Assembly (NCBI GenBank): GCA_018873225.1
Contig: JAEILZ010000007.1
Coordinates: forward strand, 1,674,001 to 1,738,000
Direction: 5' to 3'
Source of the DNA: [Phialemoniopsis] sp. UDSM-2020
Taxonomy: Eukaryota > Ascomycota > Sordariomycetes > Thyridiales > Thyridiaceae
Length of the DNA: 64,000 nt
Positions 21,004 to 64,000 of the stretch are shown piece by piece. The notes beneath the pieces are model-generated. The model had not been told where the DNA came from. It saw nothing but the letters and a program-made list of their open reading frames with translations, and searched no databases. The stretch's first letter is position 1. Each line of letters begins with the position of its first letter. Position numbers and translations under genes: made by a program.

Positions 21004-21615
21004 TTAGCAGGTCATGGTCGCCGTGCTCGTGCGCGTCATGCAGCCCGCGGGGCACTCGGTCTGGCATCCCGTCACGAAGAGCAGCGTCTTGGGCGCGTCG
21101 CACCCGCAGCCCAGCGTCATGGTCGTCTGCTCGACGCAGCTCGGCACGGGGCACCGGATCGGTGCGCAGTCGCTCGGCATGGTGGTGTGCGTGACGGTAG
21201 GGCACGCGATGGGCCGCGGCGTGGTTGGCCGCGGGGGGAGCGTGGTCACGCCCGTCGTCACGACCGGGGTGGTCGTCGTGGTGGTGGTGGTGGTCGTCGG
21301 GCGCCAGGTCGGGCGGGTACGTGTGCGGCGCGTCGTGGTGGTTTCGCAGGGCAGGGCGCGCGTGCGGAAGTCCGCCGCGCAGCCGTTGTAGGGGCAGTCT
21401 GCGCCGCAGGGGGAGAGGAGCGTGGCCGTGGGGACCGAGGCCGGGCAGCCGCAGGGGTTGGCGACGGTGGAGATGAAGAGGCAGTCTGCGGTGCCGCACT
21501 GCTTGTTGCATCCGGGCGCCAGGGCCTGCTTGGTCACTGTCGGGCAGGCGATGTCCTGGGCGTCGGCGAGGGCGAGGGTCAGCAGGGCTGCGAGGGGGGC
21601 GAGGAGGAGCTTCAT
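21004..21615 (-). CDS. Secreted protein with two ten-cysteine domains
   Basis: Single exon, 203 aa. Residues 1-20 form a clear signal peptide (M-K-L-L-L then a Leu/Ala core ending A-D-A-Q), so the product should be secreted. The mature part has two domains that each begin A-C-P-T-V-T and hold ten cysteines with nearly equal spacing: C-x11-C-x3/4-C-x4-C-x9-C-x-C-x11/12-C-x3-C-x3/4-C-x10-C. A Thr-, Arg- and Pro-rich linker with a ten-Thr run joins them and could be O-glycosylated. I do not recognise the domain. It could be a cell-surface protein or an effector-like protein; the sequence alone does not decide. The open frame continues upstream, but the signal peptide fixes the start. Confidence 0.8.
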   Translation of the reverse strand: MKLLLAPLAALLTLALADAQDIACPTVTKQALAPGCNKQCGTADCLFISTVANPCGCPASVPTATLLSPCGADCPYNGCAADFRTRALPCETTTTRRTRTRPTWRPTTTTTTTTTTPVVTTGVTTLPPRPTTPRPIACPTVTHTTMPSDCAPIRCPVPSCVEQTTMTLGCGCDAPKTLLFVTGCQTECPAGCMTRTSTATMTC

Positions 21616-45315: not shown

Positions 45316-46750
45316 TCAGAACTCCCGCTTCTCCTGCTGCGGTAGGCTCGCCGGCTTCTTAAAGTGCGGTTGCAGCGGCGTCCAGCTGTGCTTTTGGTAG
45401 TCCTCCTGAACCTTCTCGCACGTCTTGAACCCCCACTCCGTCACGCCCATCATCAGGCAACTTTCAAACATGAACGCCATGCTGCCCTCGCCCACCTTCA
45501 TCGGCTTTAGGTCCGCGTTGCTCGCCTTCTCAAACGTCGCCGCATCGGGTCCGTGCCCGCTCATCGTGTTGTGCAGGCTCGCGCCTCCGGGCCGGAACCC
45601 ACCGCCTTCCTTGGCGTCGTAGTCGCCGGAGACAAGACCCATGAACTCGGACATGGTGTTGCGGTGGTACCACGGCGGGCGGAAGGTGTCATCCTGCACG
45701 AGCCAGCGCGGCGGGAAGATGACAAAGTCGGCGACGGCGACGCCGGGTGTCCCCGAGGGGGCCGTCAGCACGGTGAAGATGGACGGGTCCGGGTGGTCGA
45801 ACGAGATGCTGCCGATGGTGTTGAAGCGGCCAAGGTCGTACTTGTAGGGGTAGTACTTGCCGTGCCAGGCGACGACGTCGAAGGGCGTGTGCCCTTGCTC
45901 GGCGGCAAAGAGGTTGCCGCTGAACTTGGACACGATGCGCCAGGCGCTGGCCGTGTCCTCGTCGTAGGCGGCCTTGGGCACCTGGAAGTCGCGCTGGTTG
46001 GCGAGGCCGTTGCTGCCGATGGGGCCGAGCTCGGGGAGCGTGAAGTGGCCCTGGTACAGCTCGAGGATGAACCCCCTGGCGGGCCCGTCGGGAAGCGTGA
46101 CGCGGTGCCGGATGCCCCTCGGGATGACGGCGATCTCGTTAGGCCGGACGAGCATCTGTCCGAACTCGGTCTTGATATCGATGGCCCCGTGCTGCGCGAC
46201 GATGAGCAGGTCGCCGTCGGCCGAGTAGAATGCCGTATTGGCCTCCATGTCCTTGCCCACGGCGTAGATGAAGATGCCGATGCCGGACTTCATGACGGGC
46301 GATCCGGCGCCAGCGACGAGCTTCATCCCTTCGATCCAGTCGTTACTCTCGTCAAGGTCAAAGGGGTCCCAGCGCAGCTGATCGGGCACGAAATGCCACT
46401 TGTCATGGGCGTACTCTGTGCCTTTCGCGTGCTGCTCGGCCGAGCCGTAGGGGGCGAAGCGCTCATGTGCGGCCGAGGGGAGGATGCGGTAGAGCCACGA
46501 CTGCTGGTTCTCGTGGCGCGGGGCCGTGAAGGCCGTGCCCGAGAGCTTCTCGGCGTAGAGCCCGTAGTTGCATTTCTGGGGCGAGTTGGCGCCTACCGGG
46601 AGAGCGCCGGCGACGGCCTCGGACCTGTGGGTGAGTTCTTAGCATGTGCGTATAGGACATTCTGAGATGCGTGTGAGCCTACTCATGGTATGAGCCGAAA
46701 CCATTGAGATAGCTGTATTTCTCCTCGATCTTGAACTTGGTCACTGGCAT
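45316..46750 (-). CDS. hmgA: Homogentisate 1,2-dioxygenase
   Basis: Two exons, complement(45316-46624, 46683-46750), 458 aa, joined by a 58-nt intron with donor GTAGGC. The enzyme opens the ring of homogentisate to maleylacetoacetate in Phe/Tyr catabolism, using Fe(II). The start M-P-V-T-K-F and the block [14 protein letters not shown] are typical. Further family blocks are [22 protein letters not shown] and [15 protein letters not shown]. The metal-site segments [12 protein letters not shown] and [11 protein letters not shown] carry the His and Glu ligands. Length is normal. In some fungi this gene sits in a catabolic cluster with fahA and maiA; neither is seen nearby, so it stands alone here. 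Confidence 0.96.
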
Positions 46751-47527
46751 AGTCACGTCACTATGGAAAAGGATGGCTTCGTCGTCTGGTGAAACTCGAG
46801 CTCTGAATGCGTGCCTGCTTATGTCTGACTTTCTATCGTACAGAGGTATCAAACTTGTGAAGGATGAGGTTGCGTGAGGCTTATTATCAGGACCTTCGCG
46901 TCTGGAAGTGACGGATAGTCGAGGTCATTCCGCGATGGGGCCCCGCATACATCACGCACTCGGGCGGTGCTCCAAGCCGGCAGTAGGCGCGGGATGCTGT
47001 GGGGTGCGGAGGCTTTCCGATGCCACACGGTCGGCGAGTCGCCGTCACTTCCCTTCAATAACCGAACCACGAGCCCCACTTTTACTCACTCCGCCAGTTT
47101 GCCATCAGAGCCTCGTTCTACAAAGGATGGGTATTCCACTAAGCTCAGATAAGTTTGCAGTTTGGGATGAGTCTTTCCACACGGTCTCTATTGTTTGTTG
47201 CATGCTCTATTACGTGTCATTTTGCTCCGCTGAAAATGATTGTAATTGTTTGTTGGTTCATGCTGCTAGACAAAATGATCCCTCCTAAGGTGAAAGGGAT
47301 GTTTGGGAATCCTTTCCAAAGAGTTCGGAGTTGGGAATCGTCAGATTGTCGAAATCATCCATTCCTAGTCAATGTTGAAAGACAAACAACATCTATAATG
47401 ACTTGGTAAAAAACTGTTTGCTCTGTCAATAGATCAGCTTTATAAATCAGTATGGATCTCCAACTGCGAATTAATGCCACTTTTCTTACGTTTTGCTTCC
47501 ACCGTGACGCCTTCACCTTTGATCACG
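46751..47527. other. Intergenic between divergent genes
   Basis: Promoter of hmgA (minus) and of the first member of the six-cysteine family (plus). No gene is supported. Confidence 0.5.
47441..47448 (+). promoter_or_regulatory. TATA-like box of family gene A
   Basis: TATAAATC lies 87 bases before the ATG at 47528, a usual distance for a fungal TATA element. Confidence 0.35.
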
Positions 47528-48469
47528 ATGGCCCTCTCAGACAAGGATCATGTCTCCTTTAGGGACATAATGGAGTGCATCACTTGTCTCCGTGGCACAG
47601 CTGAGCTCATGAAGGAACCCACATACAGCGTTGAAGGCCTCGTCTTACTGCCTCTGAAATGCCGCTTCAGCTTTACAAACGAAGATGTTTGTATCCCGTG
47701 TACTGATAAGACTACGTCTTGCCGCCAGGCAAGTATCATCTGCTAATCGTAATAAGGCGATGGAGAAACCTAGCTAAACATGTCTCACAGGTCTCGAACG
47801 CCATGCTTGGCGTTTTTCACGATATGCTCAGACTCGTCCGGTGGGCGGAGACCGTACTGACCAGCATCGATTCAGCTGTAACGAAATCGAGAATTAAGGT
47901 CCAGGTCGTTTCTGAAAGTGGAGATGGACCTCTAGTGAGGAGGTTGTATGAGGGGTCCAATTCTACAGGCCTCCCCGTGGCTATTGAGAAGCTCGTGAGC
48001 AAATTCCCCGACGCAGAGAAGGCGCACAGAGCCGACTATGGTCTTGGTGAAAAGCCGACAACCCAGGTAAGGACACTTTGGTAGGTACGTCAGGAAAGTA
48101 GAACGTTAACTTTCTTGAACACCTAGGCCCTCGTGGACTACCGACTTTTCTGCCAACAACGGCAGCTACTTGTGGCGACACGCGTCCTCACTAATCAAAC
48201 TTCCGTAAGATGTCTTCTATACTTATAACGTGTGATTGTGAGACTGACCACTATTCCAATGACAGAACGAGAGCAGGGCGACAGGGCGAGGTCAAGGGAC
48301 TCCGTATGCTCGTCTCGAACCTGGTGACAAGCATTTCGTAAATTGGTCATGTGCGAAACACCTTTTTGTAAGGCATGTACGTCGTGGTTTTGCGTGGCCT
48401 CATGATGACTTTGACGGAAGTGGTCTAAGAGAAGTCATTGAGAACCCACCGGACGTCTTGGTATGGTAG
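47528..48469 (+). CDS. Six-cysteine module family protein, copy A
   Basis: Four exons, 47528-47728, 47791-48066, 48127-48204 and 48266-48469, 252 aa. Intron 1 is a GC-AG intron (CAG|GCAAGT). The product is one of five paralogues in this window. Module 1 has Cys at 17, 20, 45, 55, 58 and 65 (C-x2-C-x24-C-x9-C-x2-C-x6-C; the other copies have x19), a likely zinc-binding fold. Module 2 is helical, beginning S-N-A-M-L-G-V-F and holding R-W-A-E and later E-K-A-H-R-A. Module 3 has D-Y-R-L-F-C-Q-Q-R, then Y-A-R-L-E-P-G-D-K-H-F-V-N-W-S-C-A-K-H-L-F-V. No signal peptide or membrane helix is seen. I do not recognise the family. The exon 3 to exon 4 junction is the least sure part. Confidence 0.65.
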
Positions 48470-49369
48470 TCTCGCGTGGAAGAGACTTAAACGGGAATTG
48501 GGAGTAGACGCCGGAAACGAACACCTCATAAGTCCTAATCAGGCTAGTAGATCGTCAGGGTGTATTCAGGTGTTAGAGCGGCTGGTAGGGTGAAAGGGGG
48601 GGGGGGGGGGGGGGGGTAGGCGGCACTGCTGTATCATCAAAGGAGCGGCGTCTGCGCTGCGAAGACTGGGCGACCAAGGACTCGGATTGACAAAAGACTG
48701 AACTCTGACCAGCTAAGAATACATTAGGGCTCTTCTCCCTATATTTATACAGGCTTTCCCCCGAGCCCTTATCATTATCGCACCGAACCCGCTGCACACC
48801 TACTGCATCTGCCGTCAGGCCCTGACAACTTAGCATATTAACTTACTTATCCCAAATAAGCTTTAATATGCAGATTATCTACTCATCTATAGCGTCTTAA
48901 AAATTCTCCTATCGATTTCTCGGGTAGGATTGTTTTTGGGTTTGTAGTAAGAGCCCTGGAGGCAATGTAGCTGTCGGTAACAAGAACGATCTTGGACAAG
49001 ACGTGCTCATGGCATACCCGAAGGCATTTTTCAAAGGTTGTGTTGCGGATTGTAGATTACGCCTGTTCCTTCTCCCGTCTCTCCTAGTCTACCCGCGCCT
49101 CTAGATCGTCCTGTTCTCATTATAAATCCTTTAATTGACGTCTAAGACCTTCTACTTTAGAGGAGTAAAGATAGTACAATCCCTGAGGTGGTCGTAATCC
49201 TAACCCTAGACTACAACGTTATAATTGTGGGGAGTCACCAACCATATTTAATATGATGACGTCTGGTGTGCTGATGTAAGCACTTTGATCGAGCTCGAGC
49301 GAACCATGGCGATGGGTCAATGAGCCCTTCACCTGGCCTCTTGATGTAGCATCGACTCTGGTACTCGAG
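48470..49369. other. Intergenic with G tract and AT-rich block
   Basis: Contains a 21-base G run at 48596-48616 and a strongly AT-rich, TpA-rich block at about 48835-49225. The block has no usable frame, as in RIP-decayed repeats. The last 130 bases are the promoter of the alpha/beta hydrolase gene. Confidence 0.5.
48596..48616. repeat. Homopolymer G21
   Basis: Twenty-one consecutive G on the plus strand, length-unstable and able to form a G-quadruplex-like structure. Length may be affected by sequencing error. Confidence 0.85.
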
Positions 49370-50164
49370 ATGACGGAGAGTACCGAGTCCTCGCTGTACT
49401 ACCGGTCTGTCAACCTGGACTGCAGCGAAACCATTCTGTTGGTGCACGGCGCTTTCACTGACGGACACGACTGGGACCTCGTGTTGCCGCATCTCGCACG
49501 CTACCACCTCCTCATCCCTGATAGCCCGGGCCATGGCAAGTCCAAGAACATCAGGCCATTCACCGTCACAGACACAGCTGCGCGACTAGCCGATCTGATC
49601 GCCGCCAAAGCCCACGGCGGGAAGGCTCATGTAGTCGGCCACAGTCTCGGCGCCAAGGTCGCCATGGCGCTTGCCTCTACCCATCCCGAGGTCGTTGACA
49701 ACGTGCTCGTATCCGGCTACGAAGTCTATCCCGCGACTTCGCTGTCGCCCTACCTACCATACGCCGTCTGGGCGGAGCAGCGCCTCGAGAACGCTGTGCC
49801 CCGGCCGCTGATTCGCTGGCTCATGGACGGCGCGGACATCCGGCGCACCGACACAGCGATCAGCACGCTGGCACTCTGCCGCGACATTGTCAGTCCGATG
49901 CAGGAGAGGGCATGGCCCACGCCCTGGCCGGCGCGAACGCTGGTGATTGCGGCCGGCAAGAGCGGCGTAATCCCGTCTGCGGATCACCCACACGACGCGC
50001 AGAAGCTAGCGCAGATCGGGAGGCAAGGTAATGAGAAGACTAGGGCAATTACGCATCCGGAGATACGGCATCCCTGGAATAGGCAGGCGCCGGGGTTATT
50101 CGGGGAGACAGTGCGAGCTTGGTTTGAGCGGCGGGAGCTTCCGGATAGCTTCTCGCCTCTATGA
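49370..50164 (+). CDS. Alpha/beta hydrolase
   Basis: Single exon, 264 aa. The oxyanion-hole segment L-L-V-H-G-A-F-T is at about residue 23. The D-S-P-G-H-G-K-S loop follows. The nucleophile elbow V-V-G-H-S-L-G-A puts the catalytic Ser at residue 92. A late His (T-H-P-E-I-R-H-P-W) is a candidate for the third triad member. The size and the lack of a signal peptide suggest a small cytosolic esterase/epoxide-hydrolase-like enzyme. Substrate is unknown. It lies between two members of the six-cysteine family on the same strand, with no evident functional link. Confidence 0.85.
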   Translation: MTESTESSLYYRSVNLDCSETILLVHGAFTDGHDWDLVLPHLARYHLLIPDSPGHGKSKNIRPFTVTDTAARLADLIAAKAHGGKAHVVGHSLGAKVAMALASTHPEVVDNVLVSGYEVYPATSLSPYLPYAVWAEQRLENAVPRPLIRWLMDGADIRRTDTAISTLALCRDIVSPMQERAWPTPWPARTLVIAAGKSGVIPSADHPHDAQKLAQIGRQGNEKTRAITHPEIRHPWNRQAPGLFGETVRAWFERRELPDSFSPL

Positions 50165-50731
50165 TGGCGAAGGACCTGCTCGTGTGCCGCAGAGAGCTTG
50201 CGAACGACTAAACACGGAAAGCATCTTCATATTCCATTGTATTGCGGGTGTCTTCCATATAGCCTAATGCAACTGCTCGGTGCGAGACAGTAATATTTAG
50301 TGTATGTCTGATTTCGGCGCAAGGAACCCCCAAAAGACAGGCTCGGGGGAGGCTTAGGTGCGGTTCAGGTGCAGCTCAGGTGGGACTGGGAGTTACTCAG
50401 GTCTGCATCCCAAAAGGGAATCTAGAAGGGTTCGTTTCCGACGTCGACTTTCTTGGAAATTACTTGCTCGTATCATAGATCCGCAGGTAGCTATTCGTAC
50501 GTTACCTTCCATGTCAGACAGAGCATCTCAAGATAATAGTCAATCACTACGGCGCTCCGTGAGGATGAATCACTGCACAGCTCTCTAGACATCTTCGTCA
50601 CTGCTTTTCGATGAGAATGCCCATCCCAGACCATTCACTGAAAACCAGATATATAAGTGCCCCCAAAGTCCTCGAATCTGTCCTTCTGCCTTTTGTTCTT
50701 CCCCACAACATCCTCAATACAATAGCACATC
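50165..50731. other. Intergenic, promoter of family gene B
   Basis: Has repeated AGGTG words at about 50355-50405 and a TATA element at 50650. No gene is supported. Confidence 0.5.
50650..50657 (+). promoter_or_regulatory. TATA box of family gene B
   Basis: TATATAAG lies about 80 bases before the ATG at 50732, followed by a pyrimidine-rich leader. Confidence 0.45.
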
Positions 50732-51764
50732 ATGCAGCGCTTTCGAGACATCATGGACCGTCACCGACAGTCTTCTGCTATTGTCGTTTCCGGACCGACA
50801 TGGAGACATAGATGCGCCTCGGAGACCAGCACGAGCGACCCGAGTTCCAGCGATAGCTCGTACTGCAGCTCCTATTGGAATCCACCCAGACATCATCATC
50901 GCAACTACCGAGACGAGCAATATCGCAACTACCGAGACGAGCAATATCGCAACTACCGAGACGATGCCCGCCGCGCAGAGGACCGTGACGCACGGGGCCA
51001 CATCAACTTTCTAGCTTCCGGCCCCCATGCAGGAAAATGCCTGTCCTGCATTCAGAACGCAGCTGAGACCATCGACCCCGAGCAGCTGCACTATGCGGAT
51101 GTCGATTGCCGGTATGCCGTGGGGATCACTGCGGACTGCGACAATTGCGCCGCTCACTCCGCGGATGGCCATCATGAATGTGTCACTGTAGGTGTTGATA
51201 TGACCCTAGCTCTTACCTCCTGACCTCTTATACTCATCAATAACTCACTAGGCGCCCGAGGCTATGTCGAAGGATCAAGAGGACTTATTTGTTCTCCTCA
51301 CCTGGGCCCGGGAGTCGGGTTTGTTTCCCTCGGTCGAGTCTGGAGATGTTACAAAGTCGTGTCTGCGCCGGGAGACTCTCACCCTTGTTTTTGCCGCGGT
51401 GAAGCGCTTTCTCTTTAGGTTCCTAGCGACTGTGGCCGCTCATTGTGAGGAGCATGACATCAAGTCCGCTTTTAATCAAGAGGTGCGCAGACTGAGCCAC
51501 TGTGTCATGAAATGTCCATCGATGAGCTAACACATATACATACAGACTAAGCTCGCCTATCGGAACTTCTGTTTGCAGAGAAAACAGCTCGGCTATGGTG
51601 ACTTGCTTCGACCAGGCGATAGAGGCTTTCCTTCTTGGAGAATGTCCAAGGCTCAATTTGTCAAGGAGATCCTTGATGCTATCTGGGAAGAGGAAGAAGC
51701 AGAGAAAATCCGCCACAGCTTGATCCGGAGCATCCCCTGGGGGCGTGTCAGGCCGGTTTGCTAG
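50732..51764 (+). CDS. Six-cysteine module family protein, copy B
   Basis: Three exons, 50732-51187, 51252-51482 and 51546-51764, 301 aa. This copy has an extra N-terminal region of about 95 residues: Ser-rich, then an 8-residue repeat R-N-Y-R-D-E-Q-Y encoded by 24-bp units. Module 1 has Cys at 103, 106, 126, 136, 139 and 150 (C-x2-C-x19-C-x9-C-x2-C-x10-C). Module 2 starts A-P-E-A-M-S-K-D-Q-E-D-L-F-V-L-L-T-W. Module 3 reads A-Y-R-N-F-C-L-Q-R, then L-R-P-G-D-R-G-F-P-S-W-R-M-S-K. Both introns are phase 0 and fall between the modules, as in the other copies. The extra intron found inside module 3 of copies A, D and E is absent. Function unknown. Confidence 0.75.
50900..50962 (+). repeat. 24-bp tandem repeat inside family gene B
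   Basis: Two full and one partial unit of CGCAACTACCGAGACGAGCA-type sequence, almost identical to each other. It encodes the R-N-Y-R-D-E-Q-Y repeat. Near identity implies a recent expansion. Confidence 0.85.
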
Positions 51765-52194
51765 GGAGCTATATGAGTGCTCTTTGTTTACACTTTTTGG
51801 AATCATTGACAACGGTGCTCTGCAATGCAGATAGCTCCGATAACGTCATTGAGCATTTCATACTTGGGACATGGGATTTGGAACATTTTTTGGACAAGCG
51901 TGCCAACGCGGTAGAAAATCTGCCCGAAGGTATCGCTTGATGAGGCGTAGGCTATCTCGAACAGAGTCACTTCATAGTTTCACCGTATCAAAATCGGAAT
52001 GACTTCCCCTTGAACCCTCTCTCGAAGCTCGTAACGTCCTTGGTGATGAGTTTACATGATTAGCACGCTTGATGCAAGTGACTCACCTGGACCTCACTTC
52101 CTACAGCTTACAACCCCCTATCACTAGCACCACGACGCCCAGACCCCCTATCCTCCTCCAAGGCAATAACCCTTATAGTTCAGAATAATCGCCC
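51765..52194. other. Intergenic, no gene seen
   Basis: 3' flank of family gene B. No coding or RNA feature is supported. Confidence 0.5.
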
Positions 52195-52500
52195 CCATCT
52201 TCCAAGGGGGCGAGGGATGGCGTAGCGGTAGCTGGCTGAAATAGGACCAGAAGCTCCGTATCATCCCACCGTAGTAAATGCCCCCTTACAAACAAACCCC
52301 GAAAGGGGCATCTGGGACTCGATCCAAGTTCGATCCCAACAACAGTCAACCAAAAACCAAAAAAAGAAGTTGACAACCACAATCCACTACACAGAGTGCG
52401 CATTGTGAGCGGAGTAAAAACTCGAAAGGGTTTTTCGCAGCCAGTTCCCCCCTCAAAGGTGAGCTGGTGAGCTTTTTTGCTGTTGTGATCCTTTTTTTTC
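52195..52500 (+). repeat. tRNA-derived SINE-like element (copy 2)
   Basis: A-box-like TGGCGTAGCGGTAGC (52218-52232) and B-box-like AAGTTCGATCC (52326-52336) are about 108 nt apart. Between them, CCCCCTTACAAAC and CCCCGAAAGGGGCATCTGGG correspond to the same stretch in the copy near 4.6 kb. A 3' module, GAGCGGAGTAAAAACTCGAAAGGG (about 52407-52430), also matches. T runs at about 52471 and 52491-52499 could stop RNA polymerase III. Ends are approximate. Confidence 0.55.
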
Positions 52501-53298
52501 CCGCCTAGTGATACTGCTTCCCCAGACAATGTCGGTTCGATATGAAGCTGCCGAGATCGTTTTGCTTTTTTTTACCCGTGTCTTTCCTGAGCGTCTTGTT
52601 CCCCCAAGTGATTTCTTCACTTGTGGCTTGTGAAAGCCATTTCAAGGCAGACGCCAAGGTGGAGTCTCCGCATCTTGATCAACCCTTCGGCAACAACGCG
52701 ATCGTATCAATGCCGCGAGGCCTTCACCGGCCGCTGACTGCAGCTTCCTGAGGACAGCTTCCGGTCGGCCTCCCGCGTTAGCGGCAAAGTATCCGTCGTT
52801 CGATGGCACTCAATAATGCACCCTCCAGACCAGTGTTACGGCGAACAATGCATCACGAGGTTGTGTAAACCGCCCATTACCCGCGTCCAATGCGTCATGG
52901 TGTATAAGTGCAGAAAGCAAAGCATAGCTATCAGCGAGCCACGTCAGTCCGGAGGTCGTTCGTGCCTGCAAGTTCGGCTGCGGGGGCAGATCCGCGTCCA
53001 ATTGTGCCGGCGGAGCCCCGGTTCGCCCCATTGGCCTCCTGCATTCGGGAGGGTCGTCGGGGAAGCTATATGGCTGGTGGACGTAGCCGGTGAGAATCCG
53101 CCTCGCTTTCCTCGCGGATGCGGCTCAAGCGGGAGGGTCTTTAACTTTTTTGAATTGACTGCCGTTGCTGGCAACAGGCCCAAAATCATTACGGAATCAA
53201 ATCATCTACAACATGGGATTTTCGAATATAAAAGAGTGCCTCTTCTTCCTTCGACGAGCAGATATGACCGCTCACTCAGGCATCCACCGCACGACATC
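52501..53298. other. Intergenic, promoter of the coiled-coil gene
   Basis: An open frame with an ATG at 52816 runs in phase into the next gene, but its 161 codons have no protein-like pattern and it spans the TATA element at 53227. It is treated as untranslated. Confidence 0.5.
53227..53234 (+). promoter_or_regulatory. TATA box of the coiled-coil gene
   Basis: TATAAAAG lies 72 bases before the ATG at 53299, which supports that start over the upstream in-frame ATG. Confidence 0.5.
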
Positions 53299-54892
53299 AT
53301 GGCACCGACCAAACCTCAAACCAACGGCCAGACAAACGGCCAGATCAACGGCCAGACCAATGGTCAATTCAACGGCTCCTCAAAGGGGCAAATCAACGGC
53401 AACAATGCTCCAGTAGCACCGTTATCCAACACAGCAGTGCACGACCTTGTCCAGTCCCTGCAACAGCTACTCGAGGGCCACACCGCCAAGGCTATCGTCG
53501 CTACCATCGAGGAGTCCAAGCGCGTGAGCAAGGAGAACGAAGATCTCAACATCACTCTCACGAAGACCTTTGAATCGATCGCCAAGGTTCAGCAAGATAG
53601 CAAGGACACCAGAGCCAGACATGACAAGTTGGCCAACCAACTCGGACAAGCAAACAAAGACAAGGAAGACACGACAGCAAAATTCGCAAAAGCTCAGACA
53701 GATCTCGACGAGCTACGTGCGGAATTGAAGAAGGCGTTCGATGAGACAACGAGGCTTCGGGCCGAGGTCGCCGAAGGAAAAGCTATGGTGGAAGAGCTTC
53801 GAAAGACCATCGAGGGAAAGAAGGAGCTGGAGACGCGCTTGGCCAAGATCACAAAGAGTGATACATTCTTCAGGGGCCTTGCCATCAAGCCCGTGGCAAC
53901 TATCGCTGGAGTGTAAGTCTTACCCCATCTGGACTCGTTCGAGATCTGTGATGCTAATAGGTTTCGCCTCCAGCGATCAGAGTCTTAGCGCCCTGTTCAA
54001 GTCGGCATACCACCTTGTCAACCAATTCCTCGGCCAGGATATGGATGCATCGTTCTTCAGCAAAAAGGAATGGGAACATTTCGTCAAACAGTCCGAGCGC
54101 GTCGGCATTCCAGTGGTCCCTTCAAACAGTCTGATGGCAAAGCAGATGCGGGTGGCAGCGTGCCTAGGCACTGTCGGATCCACCGCTACTCGCGAGATAT
54201 TCCAAGCGGTCTATCTCACGAACTCTGCAGGCGACATTGACGATTTGTTGGACGACATCGAAGAGGAGCGTGTCGATAGTGCAGAGTATCTACGCCGATG
54301 CCTACTCAAAGCCAACAGCAGAAGACTGGAGCAGAACTCCGATGAGCACGTACGAACTGCCAGCAACGGTCTGTTCAAATACTTCAAAGAGCTGGTTCCC
54401 GAAGAACATCAGCCGCAGCTAGCCCAGGCTGTGGAGGCCTGGTGCCGGAACGCATGCGAGGCGTGGAAGAAAGTGCAGCTTCTCAATTGCAGAGTCGTTT
54501 CCGATATGTGGTGGGATACAGAAGGATCGATCTCGATCTGGGAGCCCCTATACCGTATAACGAATCAAAACCCGGCGCCCAAGGCAGGGAAGGATGATCA
54601 GGACGCCTCAGGCCCTCGCACGCCGGCCGATAATGAACTTAATACCCCGTTGCAAGGTTCTGAGATCGCTTCCGTGGTATGGCCATGCTTCTACACGGCT
54701 CTCGAGCAGCCGACCAACGGAAAATACTCTGTGCTCACTAATGGGATGGTGGTGACTACCACAGAGGCTGACCTCGCCCGCCAGGAAAAATCTACGATGG
54801 CGATGCAGGGCGAGCACCGGCCCATGCGAAGTCACCGCCGTCGTAATACGAACCAGTCCAAAAGTCAAGAGCTCGTGGGTGGCCTCATTTAA
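53299..54892 (+). CDS. Coiled-coil protein, unknown function
   Basis: Two exons, 53299-53912 and 53974-54892, 510 aa; the 61-nt intron has GTAAGT, branch GCTAAT and CAG. Residues 8-40 are a short repeat of N-G-Q-[TIF] units. Residues 70-195 form a long coiled coil rich in Lys, Glu, Ala and Asp. The C-terminal 300 residues look globular and helical, with the segments L-S-A-L-F-K-S-A-Y-H-L-V-N-Q-F and W-C-R-N-A-C-E-A-W-K-K-V-Q. The tail is basic (S-H-R-R-R-N-T). No signal peptide or TM is seen. I do not recognise the family. The layout resembles lineage-restricted fungal proteins found near accessory loci. Confidence 0.75.
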
Positions 54893-55234
54893 GCTAGACA
54901 GACAACTGTCATTTCTTCCCCGACGATGGGCAACTTTGTTCAGCAGCAAGCGACGAGACGGATCAACACTGCCTTCGAGGCGTCCATGGGTATGAGAATG
55001 CTCCACAGCCGCTTATCCCAGTCTCCATAACGATCTTGGACTGACGAATGTTGATGTTTTCTACTTGATGTAAAGTAATATCACTGGCGCCGATGGAGCC
55101 ACGTACGGGTTTTCCTTCGAGCAACTCTTTGGCAACAGGTTCTTTCTTTTATTCTTGCGCTATCATGTAATACACCTAGCCCACTGCCCAGAATGATACA
55201 TCTGATATGAGCCCTCTTGAGATAGTCCTCTCCA
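54893..55234. other. Intergenic between convergent genes
   Basis: 3' flanks of the coiled-coil gene (plus) and the BTB gene (minus). Nothing else is seen. Confidence 0.5.
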
Positions 55235-56158
55235 CTAGTCCTCGGTTATGTGCTCAAGTCCGGGGGGGAAGACACCATGCAGCAAATCCGGTCTCAGAAA
55301 ACCGACCAATCCTTCAAGAATTGGATGGGAAACCATGAACTCGTTGTATTCAGTGACCGCAGCGCAAACCTCCGTGAAGCTATCCATGGCCGTGGGGTCA
55401 CCCTGATTCTGCAGTATCTGATACAGGGTCAGCCGGGCGTTTTCCTCCTCAGGCTCATCCTCCGACTCCTCATCAGACTCGGGTACCGCGATTCTACCAT
55501 CGAAACAAGCCTCCGGACGGTGCTCAATCCACTTCTTCACCAGCAAACCCTTCAGCAGGCCCGTCTTACGTCCCGACCTCAGGATTGTCTGATCTCGCGC
55601 CTCCAAGCACTTGGCGTCGCAGAGCTCCGGGTGGTCCGCGTGCGGGGCCAGTGCGCGCGGGCAGATGAACATGTTTGAGTCGCCCCAGGCGTAGCAGAAC
55701 TCGAGGGTGCTGTCGGCCTCGAGGCCCTTGTGGATGTCGGGGAGCTTCTCGTGCAGCTCCAGGCCCTCGAGGGTCTCGGTGCGGTAGCGGACCTTCAGGG
55801 CCCTTCGGTAGCATTCGTTCTCGATCCATTCCTCCAGGGCGGTGATGCCGAAGAATTTGGCCTCGGCGAGGAGCGAGCTGTACTGCGCGTAGTCGAATGA
55901 ATGGGTGGTGGAGTCGTAGAGCAGCGGGAACTGGCCGAAGCGCAGGTAGCGCAGGATGTGCTCGATCATGACCGGGTCCGAGTCGAGAAAGTAGGAGCCG
56001 TCCTCGTCGGCATCGTTCCAGCGGCCCGAGAGGCGGCCTCGGAAGTAGGGGCTCTTGGAGATGAGGGTCTCTGCTGTGGTCTCGAATGTGCGGCCGCCGG
56101 CTCTGAGCACGACGCGAGTATCGCCGCTGACACCAGTGGTTTCGGGTAGGTGCTGCAT
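55235..56158 (-). CDS. BTB/POZ (KCTD-type) domain protein
   Basis: Single exon, 307 aa. Residues 13-85 match the T1/KCTD-type BTB fold: V-V-L-R-A-G-G-R-T-F-E-T, then T-L-I-S-K-S-P-Y-F, Y-F-L-D-S-D-P and I-L-R-Y-L-R-F-G. Such domains form oligomers and often recruit Cul3 ubiquitin ligases. No second known domain follows. The C-terminal half has an acidic stretch (E-S-D-E-E-S-E-D-E-P-E-E-E) and a few Cys and His. An adaptor role is a family-based guess; the partner is unknown. Confidence 0.85.
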   Translation of the reverse strand: MQHLPETTGVSGDTRVVLRAGGRTFETTAETLISKSPYFRGRLSGRWNDADEDGSYFLDSDPVMIEHILRYLRFGQFPLLYDSTTHSFDYAQYSSLLAEAKFFGITALEEWIENECYRRALKVRYRTETLEGLELHEKLPDIHKGLEADSTLEFCYAWGDSNMFICPRALAPHADHPELCDAKCLEARDQTILRSGRKTGLLKGLLVKKWIEHRPEACFDGRIAVPESDEESEDEPEEENARLTLYQILQNQGDPTAMDSFTEVCAAVTEYNEFMVSHPILEGLVGFLRPDLLHGVFPPGLEHITED

Positions 56159-56691
56159 TTTGAGAGTTTCCAGGTTCAGATCAATTCAGGGTGGTATTTG
56201 GGTCAAAACGGGCTTTTTTGGAAAGCCTTGGCCCAGGTTTTGGGATGATGACTTTGAGGGTAGGGTGAAAACTCGGGTATGATCTGTCTGGATCTGCTTG
56301 GGCAGTCGAATGAATCCCCGCTCGGTGAAGTAAATAGAATCTGATGCAGAACGACCGGAGGATAGCTGATCTTAAAAGCAACCCAGTCACTGGTAGGTTT
56401 TATTGACATTTGGCAAACAATGCGCGCCGCCTTTTGTCTGTGGTTGGTAAACTTTAGTTTGAACCATGGTTCAAAGTGACACGAGGCAGCAGCTCAGCCT
56501 CACATTGTGCTCAATCACTTCCCACCTTTCAATTCTCACCTTTGACTCACCAACTCCGATTACAGGGTTGCTCTTCTGAGAACTTATCTAATCTCTTAGT
56601 CCAATTATTCCATGGGCAGAATATTCGCCATTCAGAACCTCTCAGCCTGCTGTTTCACCTTCACCCAGATCACCATTTCCTGTTCGCAGTC
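56159..56691. other. Intergenic between divergent genes
   Basis: Promoters of the BTB gene (minus) and of family gene C (plus). The frame of gene C is open upstream to 56476 but without an ATG in a plausible coding context. Confidence 0.5.
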
Positions 56692-57457
56692 ATGCTCGAC
56701 ACATGGGAGGACGACCGAAACCTGAGATGGATGAAATGTGTTCCCTGTATCCGGGACTTTGCCCGCGACATGATACCTGCCGAAGACTTTTGTCCCACTT
56801 TCTACTGCGTTCTGGCTCTCCCAAGCCATATCGCCTGCGTGGGTTGCATTGATTCCCACGGAGAGCATGAATGTGACATGGTAAGTTATACCCTATGAAT
56901 TGGCATACGCGATGGTAATTGTTCATTAACATCTGTCCCAGGCACCGAAAGCGATGCTGGGCAATCAGCGACAGCTTTTTATTCTCCTCTGGTGGATTCA
57001 GGAGATCGTCGATCTCTTAGATAATGAGGGCGATTGTCCTTACGTTGACAACTTTGTGATTCCAAAAGAAGGTTCTCGCCGTATGCTACAAGCTGCCAAG
57101 ATCCTCATTGAGAGCTTTCTGGCAGTAGTCGTGGCTCACCAACGCGAACACAACATCTACCCATCAGACGGCATCACCTACGAGGTAAGTCATGGGCGTC
57201 TAGATCAATGAACTGATTCGTTAACACATCTGTTCAAGGACAAGGTCAATTATCGGACCTTTTGCAACCAAAGAAGGGGCATTACATACAGTGAATTGGA
57301 ACCTGGCGATGCTAGTTACATCGCATGGGCCGCCGCGAAACACGATTTCGTCAAGACAGTCGATGATTTCGTTGACAATTATCGTCTAAGAGGACAGACT
57401 GAAAGACTGGTGCGCCCAATTGAAGACCCTATCCTAGACGATGAGTACTGCCCTTAG
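56692..57457 (+). CDS. Six-cysteine module family protein, copy C
   Basis: Three exons, 56692-56880, 56942-57184 and 57239-57457, 216 aa. It is one of the most compact intact copies and the best reference for the family. Module 1 has Cys at 16, 19, 39, 49, 52 and 61 (C-x2-C-x19-C-x9-C-x2-C-x8-C), with His in the last loop (H-G-E-H-E-C) and one extra Cys at 34. Module 2 begins A-P-K-A-M-L-G-N-Q-R-Q-L-F-I-L-L-W-W, with a later amphipathic helix ending V-V-V-A-H-Q-R-E-H. Module 3 has N-Y-R-T-F-C-N-Q-R, then L-E-P-G-D-A-S-Y-I-A-W-A-A-A-K-H-D-F-V. Introns are phase 0 between modules. No targeting signal. The family is not recognised. Confidence 0.78.
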
Positions 57458-58041
57458 AGGAAGCCTGAATCTCTCCCTCACGTCACAAAAATGTCTAGCA
57501 CGGGGGCGTAGTAGGGGAACGTACTCCGCAGAGAACGAGAGTGAACGGAAGTCTTGCACATATCTGCGTTACAAGTTGCAAGTTGCTTTAAAATAGTCGA
57601 GCTTTGGGCCCGGCCTAATATACCCTGAGTTATGATCAAGAAACAAACTTTCTCAGGGCAATTTCATTCTGGTGCTTTTCCAATGCAATATGATTCTGCC
57701 CTTATCCCGAAGATGAGAGTCTCAAAGCATACTGGCTCAGTATACGTACAGACTCACAGCCAATCCTACAGCTCTCCCGGCTATGTCACATCTGAATCCA
57801 TCACAACCATATTGATGTCATCTTGAACATATAGCCGCTCAGCCTGTTATGATGATCTTAGGTTCAACTGTACGGACTTGGAAGGCATGTTCCCAGTGTG
57901 AAAGCATAGACCGTATGGTCTAGAAAAGTTCCGAAACTGATTTAACCTACTCGATTGAATGATAGGCATGGTAAGCCGCTCTAGTGCATGATCATACAGA
58001 GAATGTGTTCCTCGACAACCACGCTCTGTCGTCCGTACCAC
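57458..58041. other. Intergenic between convergent genes
   Basis: 3' flanks of family gene C and of the SDR gene. No feature is supported. Confidence 0.5.
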
Positions 58042-59102
58042 TCAGGACACGAAGATACGCCTGAGCTCGGCTTCGATATGTTGCATAGCCGTCTCACCCA
58101 AACCATTGCCTCGCAGATCAGCCAGAAGCTTTAGCGTCTCGGGAGTACCAATCTCGCAAGTCTTGCCCACCGAATACACCCCGCTGCCCTCCCGACCGTC
58201 GGATCCAACTGACACCTCGAGCTTGCTATTAAGAGGCACCCCGGCACTCTCACCGTCCGGGGGAGGATACCGGGCGCTCGTGGATAGAAACACGTGCCTC
58301 TCGCCGCACTCGTCGTGGGAAACGAGCTCCATCTGCTTAAGCATATCCTCGGGCGCGCCGGCTAGCAGTGGCGTCTTGATCGAGCCCGGCCAGTCGTGTA
58401 CGATGCTGACCTCAGGGGCAGTCTTTGACAGCTCCTCGAGACTGAGTGTGATCAGGCTACCGAAGTGCCCGCGTAGGTCCAGGACGGGTATCTCGAAGCC
58501 CTGAAGGTCGTCTTCGTACACCTTGCCCTCGAGCGAGCCGGCGCCGACCGAGACGATACGTCGGAGAGAAGGAGCGATCCGCAGTAAGGGGAGGAGGTTG
58601 GTGATGAAGCGAATGCGAGCGTACCAGTTCAGGGCGGGCAGGATGTGGAGTCCCTCGGAGGTTTCTATTCGATCGGGCCGTTGTCAGTTTCGAAAATTAA
58701 TACACTTCCAAGAGCAGGCCGAACGTAATGAGAAGCCGGAGACTTACTCGTTCTATCGAGCTTAGGTGTTCCGGCAGTGAGGAACAACAGGTTGATCGAC
58801 TTCTCTCGCTCTTTGATGTCCGCACATACTTTATCAACATTCTTGATAAGGCTGATATCCTGCTCAATAATGCGGAACTCTCCCAAAGGGCAAATAGTCT
58901 GAGCCTCTTTGACGATGCGTTCCGCGTTCGCCCTGTTGCGGCCCACGATATAGATGCGAGGCTTGTCGGCGTACTTGACGAGGGTCTTGAGGGTGATCTC
59001 GCCGATGCCGCTGGTACCTCCGACGAAAACGGCAACTATTCCTGGTGGGAGACTCGACTTGATGAGAGCATTTGATGCACGGACGATGTCTAGCGCGACC
59101 AT
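58042..59102 (-). CDS. SDR-like NAD(P)-binding oxidoreductase
   Basis: Two exons, complement(58042-58664, 58748-59102), 325 aa, joined across an 83-nt GTAAGT...ATAG intron. The Rossmann motif G-G-T-S-G-I-G at about residues 28-34 and Y-I-V-G-R-N-R mark a short-chain dehydrogenase with NADP-type preference. N-L-L-F-L-T-A-G corresponds to the NNAG region. The active-site motif is Y-x-x-x-R (N-W-Y-A-R-I-R, Tyr 133 and Arg 137) where classical members have Y-x-x-x-K. I recall similar fungal proteins with the same change, so this seems family-typical. It is divergent from a Zn2Cys6 regulator and probably under its control. Substrate unknown. Confidence 0.85.
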
Positions 59103-59682
59103 GTTGGCAAATTCACAATGTTAACTTATATATTCAATAAAGAGGTAGTGTGGTATTCAAAGATCAAGCTTGAGCAAGTAATGTAGGGATATGGCTTGTG
59201 TCTTCACCGTTCAAGGGAGAGCTTGTCTCATTTTTATAAACGAGCGGCCCATTTCTGATTTCCTGTCCTTCTTGAACTGATACTATGCTACCTGCTACAA
59301 AATGTCTGTTGGCCGGCCGTTTAGAAACGCCGTACCCGAATCGAAGCGCCGAGCGTGAAGAACAGCGGATGCTGGCCGACTGATAACGGAAGGACTGATC
59401 TGGCCAGGCTTTCCGGGTTTTGAGACGTAATCCTCAAGTCTTTAGTCATCCAGCCGGCTCTGAAGCAAAACCAAGCCGTGCTAAGCAATCGAAACGCCGA
59501 ACATGTGGGGCCAGAATCCGAGCGAAAACGCCGAACGTGCAGCCGGGTGGCCGACTGCACTTCCGATTGATCACTCAGCAATAGCAACACCCAGTCCACA
59601 TGCGAATTGTGTTGAAGTTCATCCTTATTCCTTTATCGTTCGTATCGGTACTGTAACTCAGCATCCCTGTGCGATTGGCGAT
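59103..59682. promoter_or_regulatory. Shared divergent promoter with duplicated motif unit
   Basis: Four copies of a GAAACGCCGAACGTG-like motif occur at about 59323-59338, 59341-59356, 59490-59506 and 59522-59539. They form two units, each ending with TGGCCGACTG (near 59384 and 59554). Two copies of one motif per unit, lying between a Zn2Cys6 gene and an enzyme gene, fit regulator binding sites. Confidence 0.5.
59231..59240 (-). promoter_or_regulatory. TATA box of the SDR gene
   Basis: On the minus strand TTTATAAAAA lies about 130 bases before the ATG at 59102. Confidence 0.4.
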
Positions 59683-61074
59683 ATGATATCGCAATCTTCT
59701 CCCAGATCAAGACCGTCGGCGCCGGATCCACCGGCGTCAGCACCGGCATTTCCGATGTCAAATGATCACCACACTGCACAGACTCCCAAGCCAGGCACCG
59801 ACAAGACTCGTAGGTCATGTGATCGCTGCCATGCACAGAAGTTGCGATGTGCGAAGCGTCCAGGAGGTGCTGGGTGCAAAAGATGCCTGCGACTAGGATT
59901 CCCGTGTCAGTACAGCCCTCGTGCTGCTCGCGTTCCTCGGGCCGCACGGGGAGCAGCACTACAACGACAGGGCCAAGAACCCAACGTTCTACATGAAAGC
60001 AGTCTTGTTATCCACACAACAGAAGGTGCAGATGGTATCAGCTCGGATACAACAACAAGCAAGGACACAAACTGCTTCTGGCAACCGACACCCGACGGTT
60101 CTGGGTTTCAGGAAAACCTCGATGTCTTCAATCCAACGAAGATCGCGCCTTTTCATCCTCTCGATATGGGCTTGACTCCAAATCTCAACCAGCCGATTGG
60201 TCTCGGTCTTGCAGATCCATGGGATATGACGGAGCAAAGTCTTATGCAGGCCTCCGGGGTCGTTAAGGATGATCACGCTTCTATTGTCCGCCGGCTAGCC
60301 ACATTACAAGTCGACCTATACGACTGTCTCGCAAACTTCCCCTTCGAAGATACCTCTAGCGATGGCACAATAAACCCTTGCGACCTTGACACCTCGTCGA
60401 CGAAACCAACAACTCGCTTCTCTATTGACGAGCTCTTCCACCTCACTAGTGAGTTCGTCGGTATCGTGGAAGCCTTTTCGACTTGGGCGCCTGGCACGCA
60501 CCAGCATCATCAACCGTTTAGCACGTCATTTTCATCTAGCTCAACTTCAAGCCAGAACACGGGGAACGGCACCGTCCAGTGGCTCACGGGTGGACAAACA
60601 GCCGCCCAAGACACTGACATAGCCCAATTCCCTTTTTCAGCTTCAGTCGACGGAGCCACAGTGCTGGCGATCGCCGCTTGCCATCTCCGACTCATGCAGC
60701 TTTACTACGCCGTCTTCCAACGGATACAGATCTGCATCAAACACTTGCGGGGTCTCAGTCCCGGGGGCAAGTGGAAGATCATCCTACCACCGGTACAATT
60801 CGGTGCTCTTTCCCTTCCCCAGCGCCAGGTCGATGCATCATCGCCGGCCCCATCACAGGCCACATCGTCCATGTACATGCTTATGTTCACGACCCTCTCA
60901 GCGCAGCTGTGGGCGAAAGCGGGCGGGCTACTTCGCACACACGCCAGCCACGCTCCTCAGGCTGCGTCAATGGCGTCGGCATCTTCGACGTCTTGTATGG
61001 CTTGGGGCAAGATGAAGGATGAAACGGAGGGTCTGAGGCAAAAGATTACGCATGTCCAGCACTTACTCTCCTAA
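59683..61074 (+). CDS. Zn2Cys6 transcription factor (AflR-like)
   Basis: Single exon, 463 aa from the ATG at 59683. The binuclear zinc cluster is complete: C46-x2-C49-x6-C56-x8-C65-x2-C68-x6-C75, with the basic residues K-T-R-R before it and Q-K-L-R inside it. The rest is weakly conserved, with a helical region near residues 320-380 (V-L-A-I-A-A-C-H-L-R-L-M-Q-L-Y-Y) as in AflR-type regulators of small clusters. An earlier in-frame ATG at 59503 lies inside a promoter motif copy, so it is not preferred. The neighbouring SDR gene is the likely target. Confidence 0.85.
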   Translation: MISQSSPRSRPSAPDPPASAPAFPMSNDHHTAQTPKPGTDKTRRSCDRCHAQKLRCAKRPGGAGCKRCLRLGFPCQYSPRAARVPRAARGAALQRQGQEPNVLHESSLVIHTTEGADGISSDTTTSKDTNCFWQPTPDGSGFQENLDVFNPTKIAPFHPLDMGLTPNLNQPIGLGLADPWDMTEQSLMQASGVVKDDHASIVRRLATLQVDLYDCLANFPFEDTSSDGTINPCDLDTSSTKPTTRFSIDELFHLTSEFVGIVEAFSTWAPGTHQHHQPFSTSFSSSSTSSQNTGNGTVQWLTGGQTAAQDTDIAQFPFSASVDGATVLAIAACHLRLMQLYYAVFQRIQICIKHLRGLSPGGKWKIILPPVQFGALSLPQRQVDASSPAPSQATSSMYMLMFTTLSAQLWAKAGGLLRTHASHAPQAASMASASSTSCMAWGKMKDETEGLRQKITHVQHLLS

Positions 61075-61498
61075 GGAACACTACAAGGATATCTTTGGCT
61101 TTGCCGACCTGTTTCGGGCGTGGAACCGTCACAGTATACTCTGCTGAGCCTGATCAAGTTCAGGAACCCTTTGTTATGATTGTCACTTGCACGATTATTT
61201 CTTCAGACAGGAGCATATTTACTGGACACAAAGACCAGGATGTTCCCCCCGACAGAGGCACGTTTAGGATAACTCTAAATCATCTAGTCCGAAGTAGGTT
61301 AAAGTAATTACTTCCGAAAACGAGACCGTGGCACGGAGCCCCAAAAAAGCCAATCTACCATTTGGAGATGGTTCCGGTGAAAGGTCAGATAGAGCAGACA
61401 AACGAGTCTCCTGAGATGAGCCAGATCCAGTCCTCGACGACGAGCAGAGGAATGCCACATCATCAAGGATGTCGACGGTGCGACTCACTGAATCTGAT
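61075..61498. other. Intergenic between convergent genes
   Basis: 3' flanks of the regulator gene and of family gene D. No feature is supported. Confidence 0.5.
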
Positions 61499-62368
61499 TT
61501 AAGTCTGGGTTATGTAAACCTCCCGGAGAAGGTGGTCCGGCCGCGCCTTGAGAACTTGGTTGCGGGTCACCCGTCCTTCGGGTACCTTGACACACTTCAG
61601 AAGCCAGTACATGCGTTGAATGTACCACTGCTTGGCCATCTCCCAGGTCGTAAAGCCGGCATCGCCATGTCGAAGATAGAGCAGCTCCGCGGTCTATAAT
61701 ATGCGGGTAGGTCAGCAAAGGCTCAAAAACAGTGGGTACGAGTGGAAGAACATACCTGCTGTCGCTGGTTGCAGAATGTTCGGTAGCTCGTATCGTTCTA
61801 ATGATTCCATTGACGTTAGACCCTGCTCTTAAGAGTTTAGAAAAGACCGAGACCATTCTTACCGGTAGGGTTGGACCGCTTGGACCGAGGCCGTGCTGTG
61901 CGCGGTGGGCTGCTTCGACCTTCAGGAAGGCACCGAACAGGTCCTTGATGGCCGAGATCATTTGGTTGACTATGTCATCAGGAACACCGAGCGCAGTTGG
62001 CTTGCCAGGTGTCGCTCTGGTGTCTGTCAGGTCCCGCAGCTCGAGGACGGGTCGAATCCAGTCTAGGAGCTGAAAGAGCTCCTTCTGGTTGCCCATCATT
62101 CCCGTAGGAGCCTATATTGCAGTTTTGGTATGGTAAGCCTGGGATCGGGCGAGGTCAATCTTGTAGCTGTACCTACAGGAGCACAGTTTGCCTTGGAGCT
62201 GTGGTCGCCACGGCATTCATCACAGTGCAAAGCACAGCCTGTGTAGAAGCATTTCTCAACCAAGCGGACGGGGTGCTTGGGATCGAGCTCTGCTTCGTCA
62301 TGACGGATGCAGGCAACACACTTCATCATGAAAAGCGGCTGAGACTCGGAGTCTATTGGGTAAGGCAT
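61499..62368 (-). CDS. Six-cysteine module family protein, copy D
   Basis: Four exons, complement(61499-61693, 61756-61797, 61863-62111, 62177-62368), 225 aa; introns 62-65 nt. Module 1 has Cys at 17, 20, 40, 49, 52 and 62 (C-x2-C-x19-C-x8-C-x2-C-x9-C). Module 2 starts A-P-T-G-M-M-G-N-Q-K-E-L-F-Q-L-L-D-W and ends near V-E-A-A-H-R-A-Q-H-G. Module 3 is split by an extra intron: a 42-nt exon encodes S-Y-R-T-F-C-N-Q-R-Q-Q. The last exon encodes L-R-H-G-D-A-G-F-T-T-W-E-M-A-K. It is the only copy on the minus strand and faces copy E head to head. Function unknown. Confidence 0.75.
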
Positions 62369-62876
62369 GATGATGGTTGCAAGACTGTTCGTTATGTGGA
62401 GGTTGCTGAGGATTGCTTTGTACTGGTGATGTTTGGCGTGGTGTGTTTGCGATGAAGAAGGATGAAGCCTGCTTGGGCCTGAACGAAAGGAGTGGTAGGT
62501 AACAAACCTGCCAAAGTTTTGAGAGGAGTTGTTTAAATAGTGAGGGGAGGATGCGAACACGTTCTCAAGCTAGCTTCCCTCAACTGGACATCAGATTCAA
62601 TGCAACATGGGCTAATTATTCAACTCCTGAGAGATAGCTGAGTATGCGTACCAGTCTAATAAATGATTCTTGGTCGGTTAGTATATATTACAACCACATG
62701 ATAGTGCAAAAAGTGGCCAATGCTCAAAGGATTCTGCTTGAGCTTATGCTTGGGTTTCATCTTTCCTTTTTATCATCACTCTCAATTCCAACTTGACTAC
62801 TGGTATCAGACAACTTGTTTCCTTTTGACTGTAACCAACCTCATCCCTACCTTGTGTTGTTTCACTCTTATTCATC
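62369..62876. other. Divergent promoter of family genes D and E
   Basis: 508 bases between the two start codons. A TATTTAAA-like element precedes D (about 62532-62541) and TATATATT precedes E (near 62684). No gene is supported. Confidence 0.45.
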
Positions 62877-63703
62877 ATGACGTGCAACTCTACTTCTTAC
62901 CAGAGTCTCTCAGAACCTGAGGAGATGTACTGTTTGCCATGTCTGACCGAGACTAAGAGCTCGCTGGTGAGCTTCAAACTCTTCAAAGGCCTGGATCTTT
63001 GCAAGTTTGCTCCTGGCTCGACCAGCTGCGATCAGTGCTCTCCCGAAGAGACAGCTGAGACAACTTCAAAGTGCCGTTTTGTGAGCAAACATCAGAACAC
63101 TTTGGCCTGTCAACAAAACTAACACCAGAGCTTGCAAGGTCTCTCTTGGTCTGATTGGCAATCAATACGAACTGTGTATCCTGTTTGCCTGGGCACGCAA
63201 ACTTCGACTTATGGCAGGTGAAGACAACGACGATTCTTCCGACAAGTTCACCAACGGCCAGCAACTGGTTGAAAGCTTCGCTTATGCGATTCGACTTCAT
63301 CAAGAGGAACGTGGCTCTCGTATCGGCCATGCCCAGCAGAGCGTAAGTTAGAAAAGGGGCTGAATTACGTTGTGAAACATCGTTGTAACCCTTGGTTTAG
63401 GCTCTCCGGGGAGATTATGAATGGTATTGTGCCAGTCAGCGCCTAGGCCAGGTAAATAACCACTAGTTTTGTCTATAGTTGACTCTCTTCTAACCGGTCT
63501 CTTCGCAGGGATACAAACACCGCATGGCACCTGGTGATAAGGGTTTCGACGTCTAGGAGACGGCGAAGCTCACCTTCATGAGCCATGTTCGCGAGATGTA
63601 TTGGTATTCATCGGCCGGTCTTGAGCATCCGGACAAGTTCAACAAGCTGCTTCTTGCCGATCCTCTGACCACTGAGACGGATGAAGCACAAGATGACGAG
63701 TAG
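62877..63703 (+). pseudogene. Six-cysteine module family, copy E, with premature stop
   Basis: Four exons, 62877-63080, 63139-63342, 63401-63451 and 63509-63703. Modules 1 and 2 are intact: Cys at 19, 22, 42, 51, 54 and 66, then G-L-I-G-N-Q-Y-E-L-C-I-L-F-A-W. The third exon encodes D-Y-E-W-Y-C-A-S-Q-R. In the last exon, M-A-P-G-D-K-G-F-D-V is followed by TAG at 63554-63556, exactly where all other copies have Trp. The frame beyond the stop still matches the family (E-T-A-K-L-T-F-M-S-H-V-R) and ends in TAG at 63701. The full last exon would be 195 nt, as in copy D. It is a recent pseudogene, or a gene making a 168-residue product that lacks the end of module 3. Confidence 0.72.
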
Positions 63704-64000
63704 ACAGGCGAGGGATCTTGGCGAGATGGAGAGGCGTATTTATCACAAAGGCTCTTGCTTTGTACTTATGGAAGGGCACCCTTGAGCGATAGTAGACTTG
63801 GGGACAAGTCAACAGCTTTGTATTTGTAGCATTTCTTGCTTGTCTGGGAGCGTGCCAATTGCTATTGAAGCCGAGTAGCCGTCATAATAACACAGGGATG
63901 GCTTCAAGTCATATCGACTTTCATAGTCTCGTCGAGACATTCAAAATCATCAGGCCAGTTCGCACTCAATGACATTCTCCACAGACGACTGCGCACACCT
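63704..64000. other. Right edge, no gene seen
   Basis: 3' flank of family copy E. No feature is supported. Confidence 0.5.

Follow-up and report, generated by a model that had tools for sequence, protein, structure and literature searches.

Fungal regulators of the Zn2Cys6 type (PF00172) follow the cysteine rule C-x2-C-x6-C-x5..12-C-x2-C-x6..8-C, and MOB proteins (MOB1/phocein, PF03637) are helical zinc-binding adaptors with Cys-x4-Cys and His-x4-His as zinc ligands. Taxonomically restricted tandem families form a further category of fungal genes. Here, a cluster of five genes, named copies A to E, was analysed, which is located at positions 47528-63703 of a 64,000-nucleotide stretch (the window; all positions are given within it) of contig JAEILZ010000007.1 from [Phialemoniopsis] sp. 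UDSM-2020. The five genes almost certainly form a genuine, unnamed and locally clustered protein family, and we infer, with a confidence of about one half, that its members are intracellular proteins composed of a six-cysteine zinc module and a helical adaptor part. The family resembles the restricted tandem families in being unnamed, clustered and strongly diverged, with one interrupted copy; it differs from them in combining deep divergence among the copies with fixed intron positions, and its restriction is conjectural here.

For the construction of gene models, the sequence was read from 46500 to 58000 and from 61200 to 64000 on the forward strand and from 61300 to 62800 also on the reverse strand, and all open reading frames (ORFs) between 46 and 64 kb were tabulated for the two strands. 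Splice signals and the modules guided the manual prediction of the five models. As described in the first-pass annotation of the window, five related genes with three modules in one order are predicted, A, B, C and E on the forward strand and D on the reverse strand (Table 1). The 13 modelled introns are 54-65 nt in length and all in phase 0, with GT-AG splice sites in 12 and GC-AG in one (copy A, intron 1). Intron 1 is located two codons past the sixth cysteine in all five copies, and intron 2 four codons ahead of the module 3 tyrosine in four copies and five codons ahead of it in copy E. Phase-0 introns thus separate the modules in every copy, as had been claimed, but the gene structures are not identical: a third intron is modelled inside module 3 of copies A, D and E.

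In order to examine homology beyond chance, module profiles built without one copy were run on 7778 ORFs, taken from all six frames of the window and a total of 200 kb of adjoining DNA (264 kb together); module 3 of copy E was left out of the training rows. The omitted copy was recovered in 14/14 tests with E values between 2.5e-13 and 0.018, and in 13 of these it ranked ahead of every listed ORF from outside the cluster. The exception was module 1 of copy A (E 0.018), which came one place behind an antisense ORF at 17662-17772 (E 0.0099). This ORF, matched by the module 1 profile at E 0.007, was considered as a sixth copy on the reverse strand and rejected; it runs antisense inside an importin/Cse1-like gene and was taken as a chance match. 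The same profile scan listed L032 7023-7139 at E 0.13.

The six cysteines are invariant across the five-copy alignment, and when measured in each copy the module 1 spacing agreed with the pattern given earlier, C-x2-C-x19-C-x8/9-C-x2-C-x6..11-C, with x24 in copy A. The Cx2C pairs are fixed while loop lengths vary among the copies, and copies C and D each have one additional, unaligned cysteine. One histidine, located in module 2, is invariant in the alignment. The module 3 motif was recognisable but looser than previously stated: P-G-D-x-x-F reads H-G-D in copy D, tyrosine replaces phenylalanine in copy C, and copy E has an in-frame stop within the motif, so that its frame up to the stop lacks W-x-x-[AS]-K. 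The module 3 profiles matched module 3 of copy E weakly, with E values of 0.74 and 1.5 in those leave-one-out runs that listed it and 2.5 in a further run; its assignment therefore depends on the motifs Y-x-x-Y-C and P-G-D together with its location within the gene. The frame past the stop codon of copy E (TAG) is open as far as 63703, and the last two letters of this codon, AG, might act as an alternative 3′ splice site in frame (stop and open frame together, 63554-63703). Copy E may be either a truncated gene or a gene in which the stop is bypassed via an alternative 3′ splice site that keeps the frame. In copy B, three 24-bp tandem units at 50898-50969 give rise to a repeated charged peptide within the N-terminal extension.

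According to the favoured reading, the six-cysteine first exon would fold around zinc by means of two Cx2C pairs and two single cysteines, modules 2 and 3 would together make up a single helical unit for the binding of partner proteins, and the proteins would act as zinc-stabilised adaptors or regulators in the cytosol or nucleus; copies would have been gained, changed and lost through birth-and-death evolution. In a reducing compartment, cysteines spaced in this way usually point to zinc, and zinc binding by module 1 is plausible. With regard to the compartment, no hydrophobic N-terminus was detected in any of the five copies by hydropathy (best 15-residue Kyte-Doolittle mean at most 0.97 for windows starting at residues 1-30), and no copy has a 19-residue stretch above a hydropathy of 1.61. 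The hydrophilic N-termini argue against secretion or membrane insertion and for an intracellular, reducing location, and the proteins of the family are probably intracellular as far as their sequences indicate. The copies are small, cysteine-rich, clustered and fast-diverging, as would be expected of secreted, disulfide-bonded effector-type proteins; given that hydropathy gives no hydrophobic N-terminus in 5/5 copies and that the cysteines are found mainly within one module and as Cx2C pairs, this explanation is regarded as extremely unlikely.

The copies might instead encode diverged Zn2Cys6-type regulators, in which a binuclear zinc cluster with a grown first loop would bind DNA or regulate neighbouring genes. 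Both families have their six cysteines in the same order with two Cx2C pairs, here in the first exon of small fungal proteins, the second half of module 1 (Cx2C-x6..11-C) comes close to the Zn2Cys6 rule, and a true Zn2Cys6 gene is located inside the cluster. The loop between the second and third cysteine, however, has 19-24 residues in all five copies instead of 6, and none of them matched PF00172 at E <= 10 in the Pfam search, in which most matches with E values above about 0.1 are lost to the HMMER filters, whereas the neighbouring factor served as positive control with an E value of 6.4e-6. No other Pfam domain accompanies the module in the copies, and a Zn2Cys6 origin appears unlikely.

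For structure prediction, single-exon alignments of five sequences were submitted to AlphaFold2 separately for module 1 and module 2. Module 2 was predicted as a two-helix hairpin with a mean predicted local distance difference test score (pLDDT) of 69.7, and a helical module of this kind would fit the role of an interaction part. A relationship to the MOB/phocein-like kinase adaptors was also considered, in which modules 2 and 3 would represent a diverged MOB helical core. A profile of all five copies (A1) listed yeast MOB1 at E 0.23, in an alignment from the tryptophan of module 2 to the cysteine of module 3, and hhalign gave a score of 33.2 with yeast MOB1 compared to at most 20.4 with shuffles; with any one copy omitted the score was 25-33. 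For each of four targets, columns and target were shuffled 60 times each as controls, and no shuffle reached the real score. This weak resemblance over a helical stretch is not significant and hardly extends to human MOB1A, for which the score fell to 21.0 over 27 columns (shuffles at most 18.4). Furthermore, PA28 and AetD, taken from the same lists, likewise exceeded their shuffles, as is expected when the best matches of a large library are picked, and single copies scored 7.7-18.8 in four cases, with only copy B reaching 26.3. PF03637 matched 0/5 copies under the HMMER filters mentioned above, and in a genome search with this profile at E <= 10 (five candidates scored) seven matches were obtained on C1, C5 and C7 and none at the cluster. 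The MOB zinc ligands are unmatched in module 1, with its Cx2C pairs, and by the single invariant histidine of module 2. With respect to the four-helix core of MOB, the structure prediction covered module 2, with its two helices. After the shuffle, human MOB1A and PF03637 controls the relationship was not supported, and it is considered very unlikely.

Several results weigh against the proposed zinc-module adaptors. AlphaFold2 did not provide a usable model of module 1 (pLDDT 43), and a Foldseek search with the module 2 model yielded no match at E <= 0.001 among the 70 listed, a negative that is uninformative for a helical hairpin. Codon preference was determined relative to a reference pooled from six open-frame genes or gene parts of the window, with the importin-like and kinase genes not included, and was near zero in the copies. 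The coding frame scored above both other forward frames in all five copies, in A by only 0.002, and the reverse complement outscored the coding frame in A and marginally in C. The G+C content at third codon positions was 0.54-0.66 in the copies and 0.54-0.90 in the six reference genes. Finally, one copy is interrupted and the cluster could be decaying.

The copies would in that case be relics of an old gene array which was once functional and is now drifting, with copy E already interrupted. The stop in copy E, the weak codon preference and the low identity between copies agree with such decay, as do indices resembling repeat-induced point mutation (RIP) in the kilobase 48001-49000, which extends from inside copy A past its end (TA/AT 1.24, (CA+TG)/(AC+GT) 0.88). 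Against this reading, frames and splice sites are intact in four of five copies despite 27-36% identity to copy C, six cysteines and several motif residues are invariant, and the RIP indices of the coding sequences were not RIP-like, with A borderline. Decay of the whole array is therefore judged rather improbable, and RIP was rejected as the cause of divergence on the basis of the coding sequences. A run of 21 G is present at 48596-48616, within the same kilobase.

The full-length identity to copy C was 32% for D, 27% for A, 36% for B and 24% for E, and no repeat of at least 22 nt joins any two copies. The duplications are therefore old, or the proteins evolve very fast; a recent duplication was rejected, and the lineage-specific expansion proposed in the first-pass annotation finds no support in the sense of a recent event. 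The homogentisate dioxygenase next to the cluster is 93% identical to a protein from Thyridium curvatum (next best match 77%), which places the host in Thyridium or close to it (Sordariomycetes, Thyridiales), and, compared by sequence, the copies appear to be either old or evolving much faster than this neighbour. A T. curvatum protein is thus among the many fungal entries of the protein database used, yet the word-based searches described below, with copy C and with the five-copy profile, found no relative in it. If the duplications preceded the split from T. curvatum, the ancestor of that species should have had copies, and in T. curvatum the family may then have been lost or have escaped annotation.

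The absence of a named domain was borne out by Pfam and NCBIfam searches of the copies, which gave no significant match. The best Pfam matches were DEAD_2 (E 0.1) and EACC1 (E 0.12), each in one copy and both under cut-offs, and the best NCBIfam match was a lysophospholipase (E 0.21) in one copy. Among PDB sequences nothing significant was found for the family; the top match PA28 (E 0.025) and AetD were taken as chance. The first-pass annotation had proposed searches with a profile of all five copies, and the profile A1, run on 2856 candidates of the protein database at E <= 1, yielded no relative. Copy C as query (42 candidates, E <= 0.01) was also without a relative in the protein database, in a search that needs shared 5-residue words. 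Only 3/10 pairs of copies have such a word in common (C-D, C-A and A-B), so that most relatives which have diverged as far as the paralogues would escape the search; this weak negative argues against close annotated orthologues and not against distant relatives in other fungi. Many hypothetical proteins of Fusarium and Colletotrichum seem to have a similar C-x2-C...C...C-x2-C...C-x2-[AV]-P run. No relative was found in viral and prokaryotic collections with copy C alone as query, and the open-access literature, searched partly with narrow terms, gave no account of the six-cysteine family.

The 44.2-Mb genome was searched with copies C, D, B and A and with exon 2 of E, and no copy was found outside the cluster at the sensitivity used, which was modest: query C matched exons of A, B and D and not of E. 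The single match outside the cluster (C11, E 0.16) was rejected as an additional copy; it lies in a 1095-residue open frame without the modules, unmatched by the profiles. The pattern Y-R-x-F-C-x-Q-R occurs four times in the genome, in copies A-D, and M-x-G-N-Q-x-x-L-F twice, in C and D, with no occurrence of either reversed control. As far as these searches reach, the family is present in one 16-kb cluster only; the profile searches covered the 264 kb and one 3.3-kb locus, and divergent copies elsewhere could escape them.

Tentatively, and with a probability clearly below one half, the family may represent an undescribed architecture, in which a new six-cysteine zinc module and a new helical domain were combined in an old Thyridiales tandem array of paralogous adaptors with different partners. 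The family adds real, structured proteins to a part of the fungal proteome that lies outside the domain libraries searched, and its small exons are a possible reason why such families stay unannotated. A neighbour with 93% identity to its T. curvatum counterpart, next to a family for which the database proteins yielded no relative, provides a cheap and sharp test of absence, loss or missed annotation. The value of the cluster lies in annotation and in its use as a test case for unrecognised fungal families, its function being only what we infer; the larger picture is unchanged on present evidence.

Table 1. Predicted copies of the six-cysteine family and genes next to or interleaved with the cluster (positions within the window).
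Feature	Position	Strand	Basis
Copy A, gene model, 4 exons	47528-48469	+	
Copy A exon 1, module 1 (six cysteines, x24 loop)	47528-47728	+	gene model, profiles, cysteine spacing
Copy A exon 2, module 2	47791-48066	+	gene model, profiles
Copy A exons 3 and 4, module 3; intron 48205-48265	48127-48469	+	gene model, profiles
Copy B, gene model, 3 exons	50732-51764	+	
Copy B exon 1, long N-terminal extension with 24-bp repeats, then module 1	50732-51187	+	gene model, profiles, repeats
Copy B exon 2, module 2	51252-51482	+	gene model, profiles
Copy B exon 3, module 3	51546-51764	+	gene model, profiles
Copy C, gene model, 3 exons	56692-57457	+	
Copy C exon 1, module 1	56692-56880	+	gene model, profiles
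Copy C exon 2, module 2 (predicted helical hairpin)	56942-57184	+	gene model, profiles, structure prediction
Copy C exon 3, module 3	57239-57457	+	gene model, profiles
Copy D, gene model, 4 exons	62368-61499	-	
Copy D exon 1, module 1	62177-62368	-	gene model, profiles
Copy D exon 2, module 2	61863-62111	-	gene model, profiles
Copy D exons 3 and 4, module 3; intron 61694-61755	61499-61797	-	gene model, profiles
Copy E, gene model as far as in-frame stop, 4 exons	62877-63556	+	
Copy E exon 1, module 1	62877-63080	+	gene model, profiles
Copy E exon 2, module 2	63139-63342	+	gene model, profiles
Copy E exons 3 and 4, module 3 to in-frame stop; intron 63452-63508	63401-63556	+	gene model, weak profile support
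Open frame directly 3′ of copy E stop, up to next stop	63557-63703	+	frame reading
Homogentisate dioxygenase, left of cluster	45316-46638	-	
Alpha/beta hydrolase, interleaved	49289-50164		
Uncharacterised gene, probably spliced, interleaved	about 53299-54892		
BTB protein, interleaved	55235-56158	-	
Short-chain dehydrogenase, interleaved	58042-59120	-	
Zn2Cys6 factor, interleaved	59485-61074		PF00172 E 6.4e-6

The cluster is located at 1.72-1.74 Mb of the 4.04-Mb contig and thus away from the contig end. For the right-hand side, nine ORFs were chosen from three loci, five of which had a match; within 30 kb a fungal rhodopsin gene, a PH/MMM1 protein, Slu7, DNA polymerase delta and an autophagy protein were found. 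The uncharacterised interleaved gene at 53299-54892 has 12-bp coding repeats (Q-x-N-G) near its start and no Pfam match in its two frames. Elsewhere in the window, a cysteine/threonine-rich protein with two C-P-T-V-T motifs is encoded at 21004-21915 on the reverse strand; it has no Pfam match and, judged by eye, a hydrophobic stretch resembling a signal peptide. Additionally, an ordinary Y-family DNA polymerase with a ubiquitin-binding zinc finger (eta-like) is located at 5944-7740.

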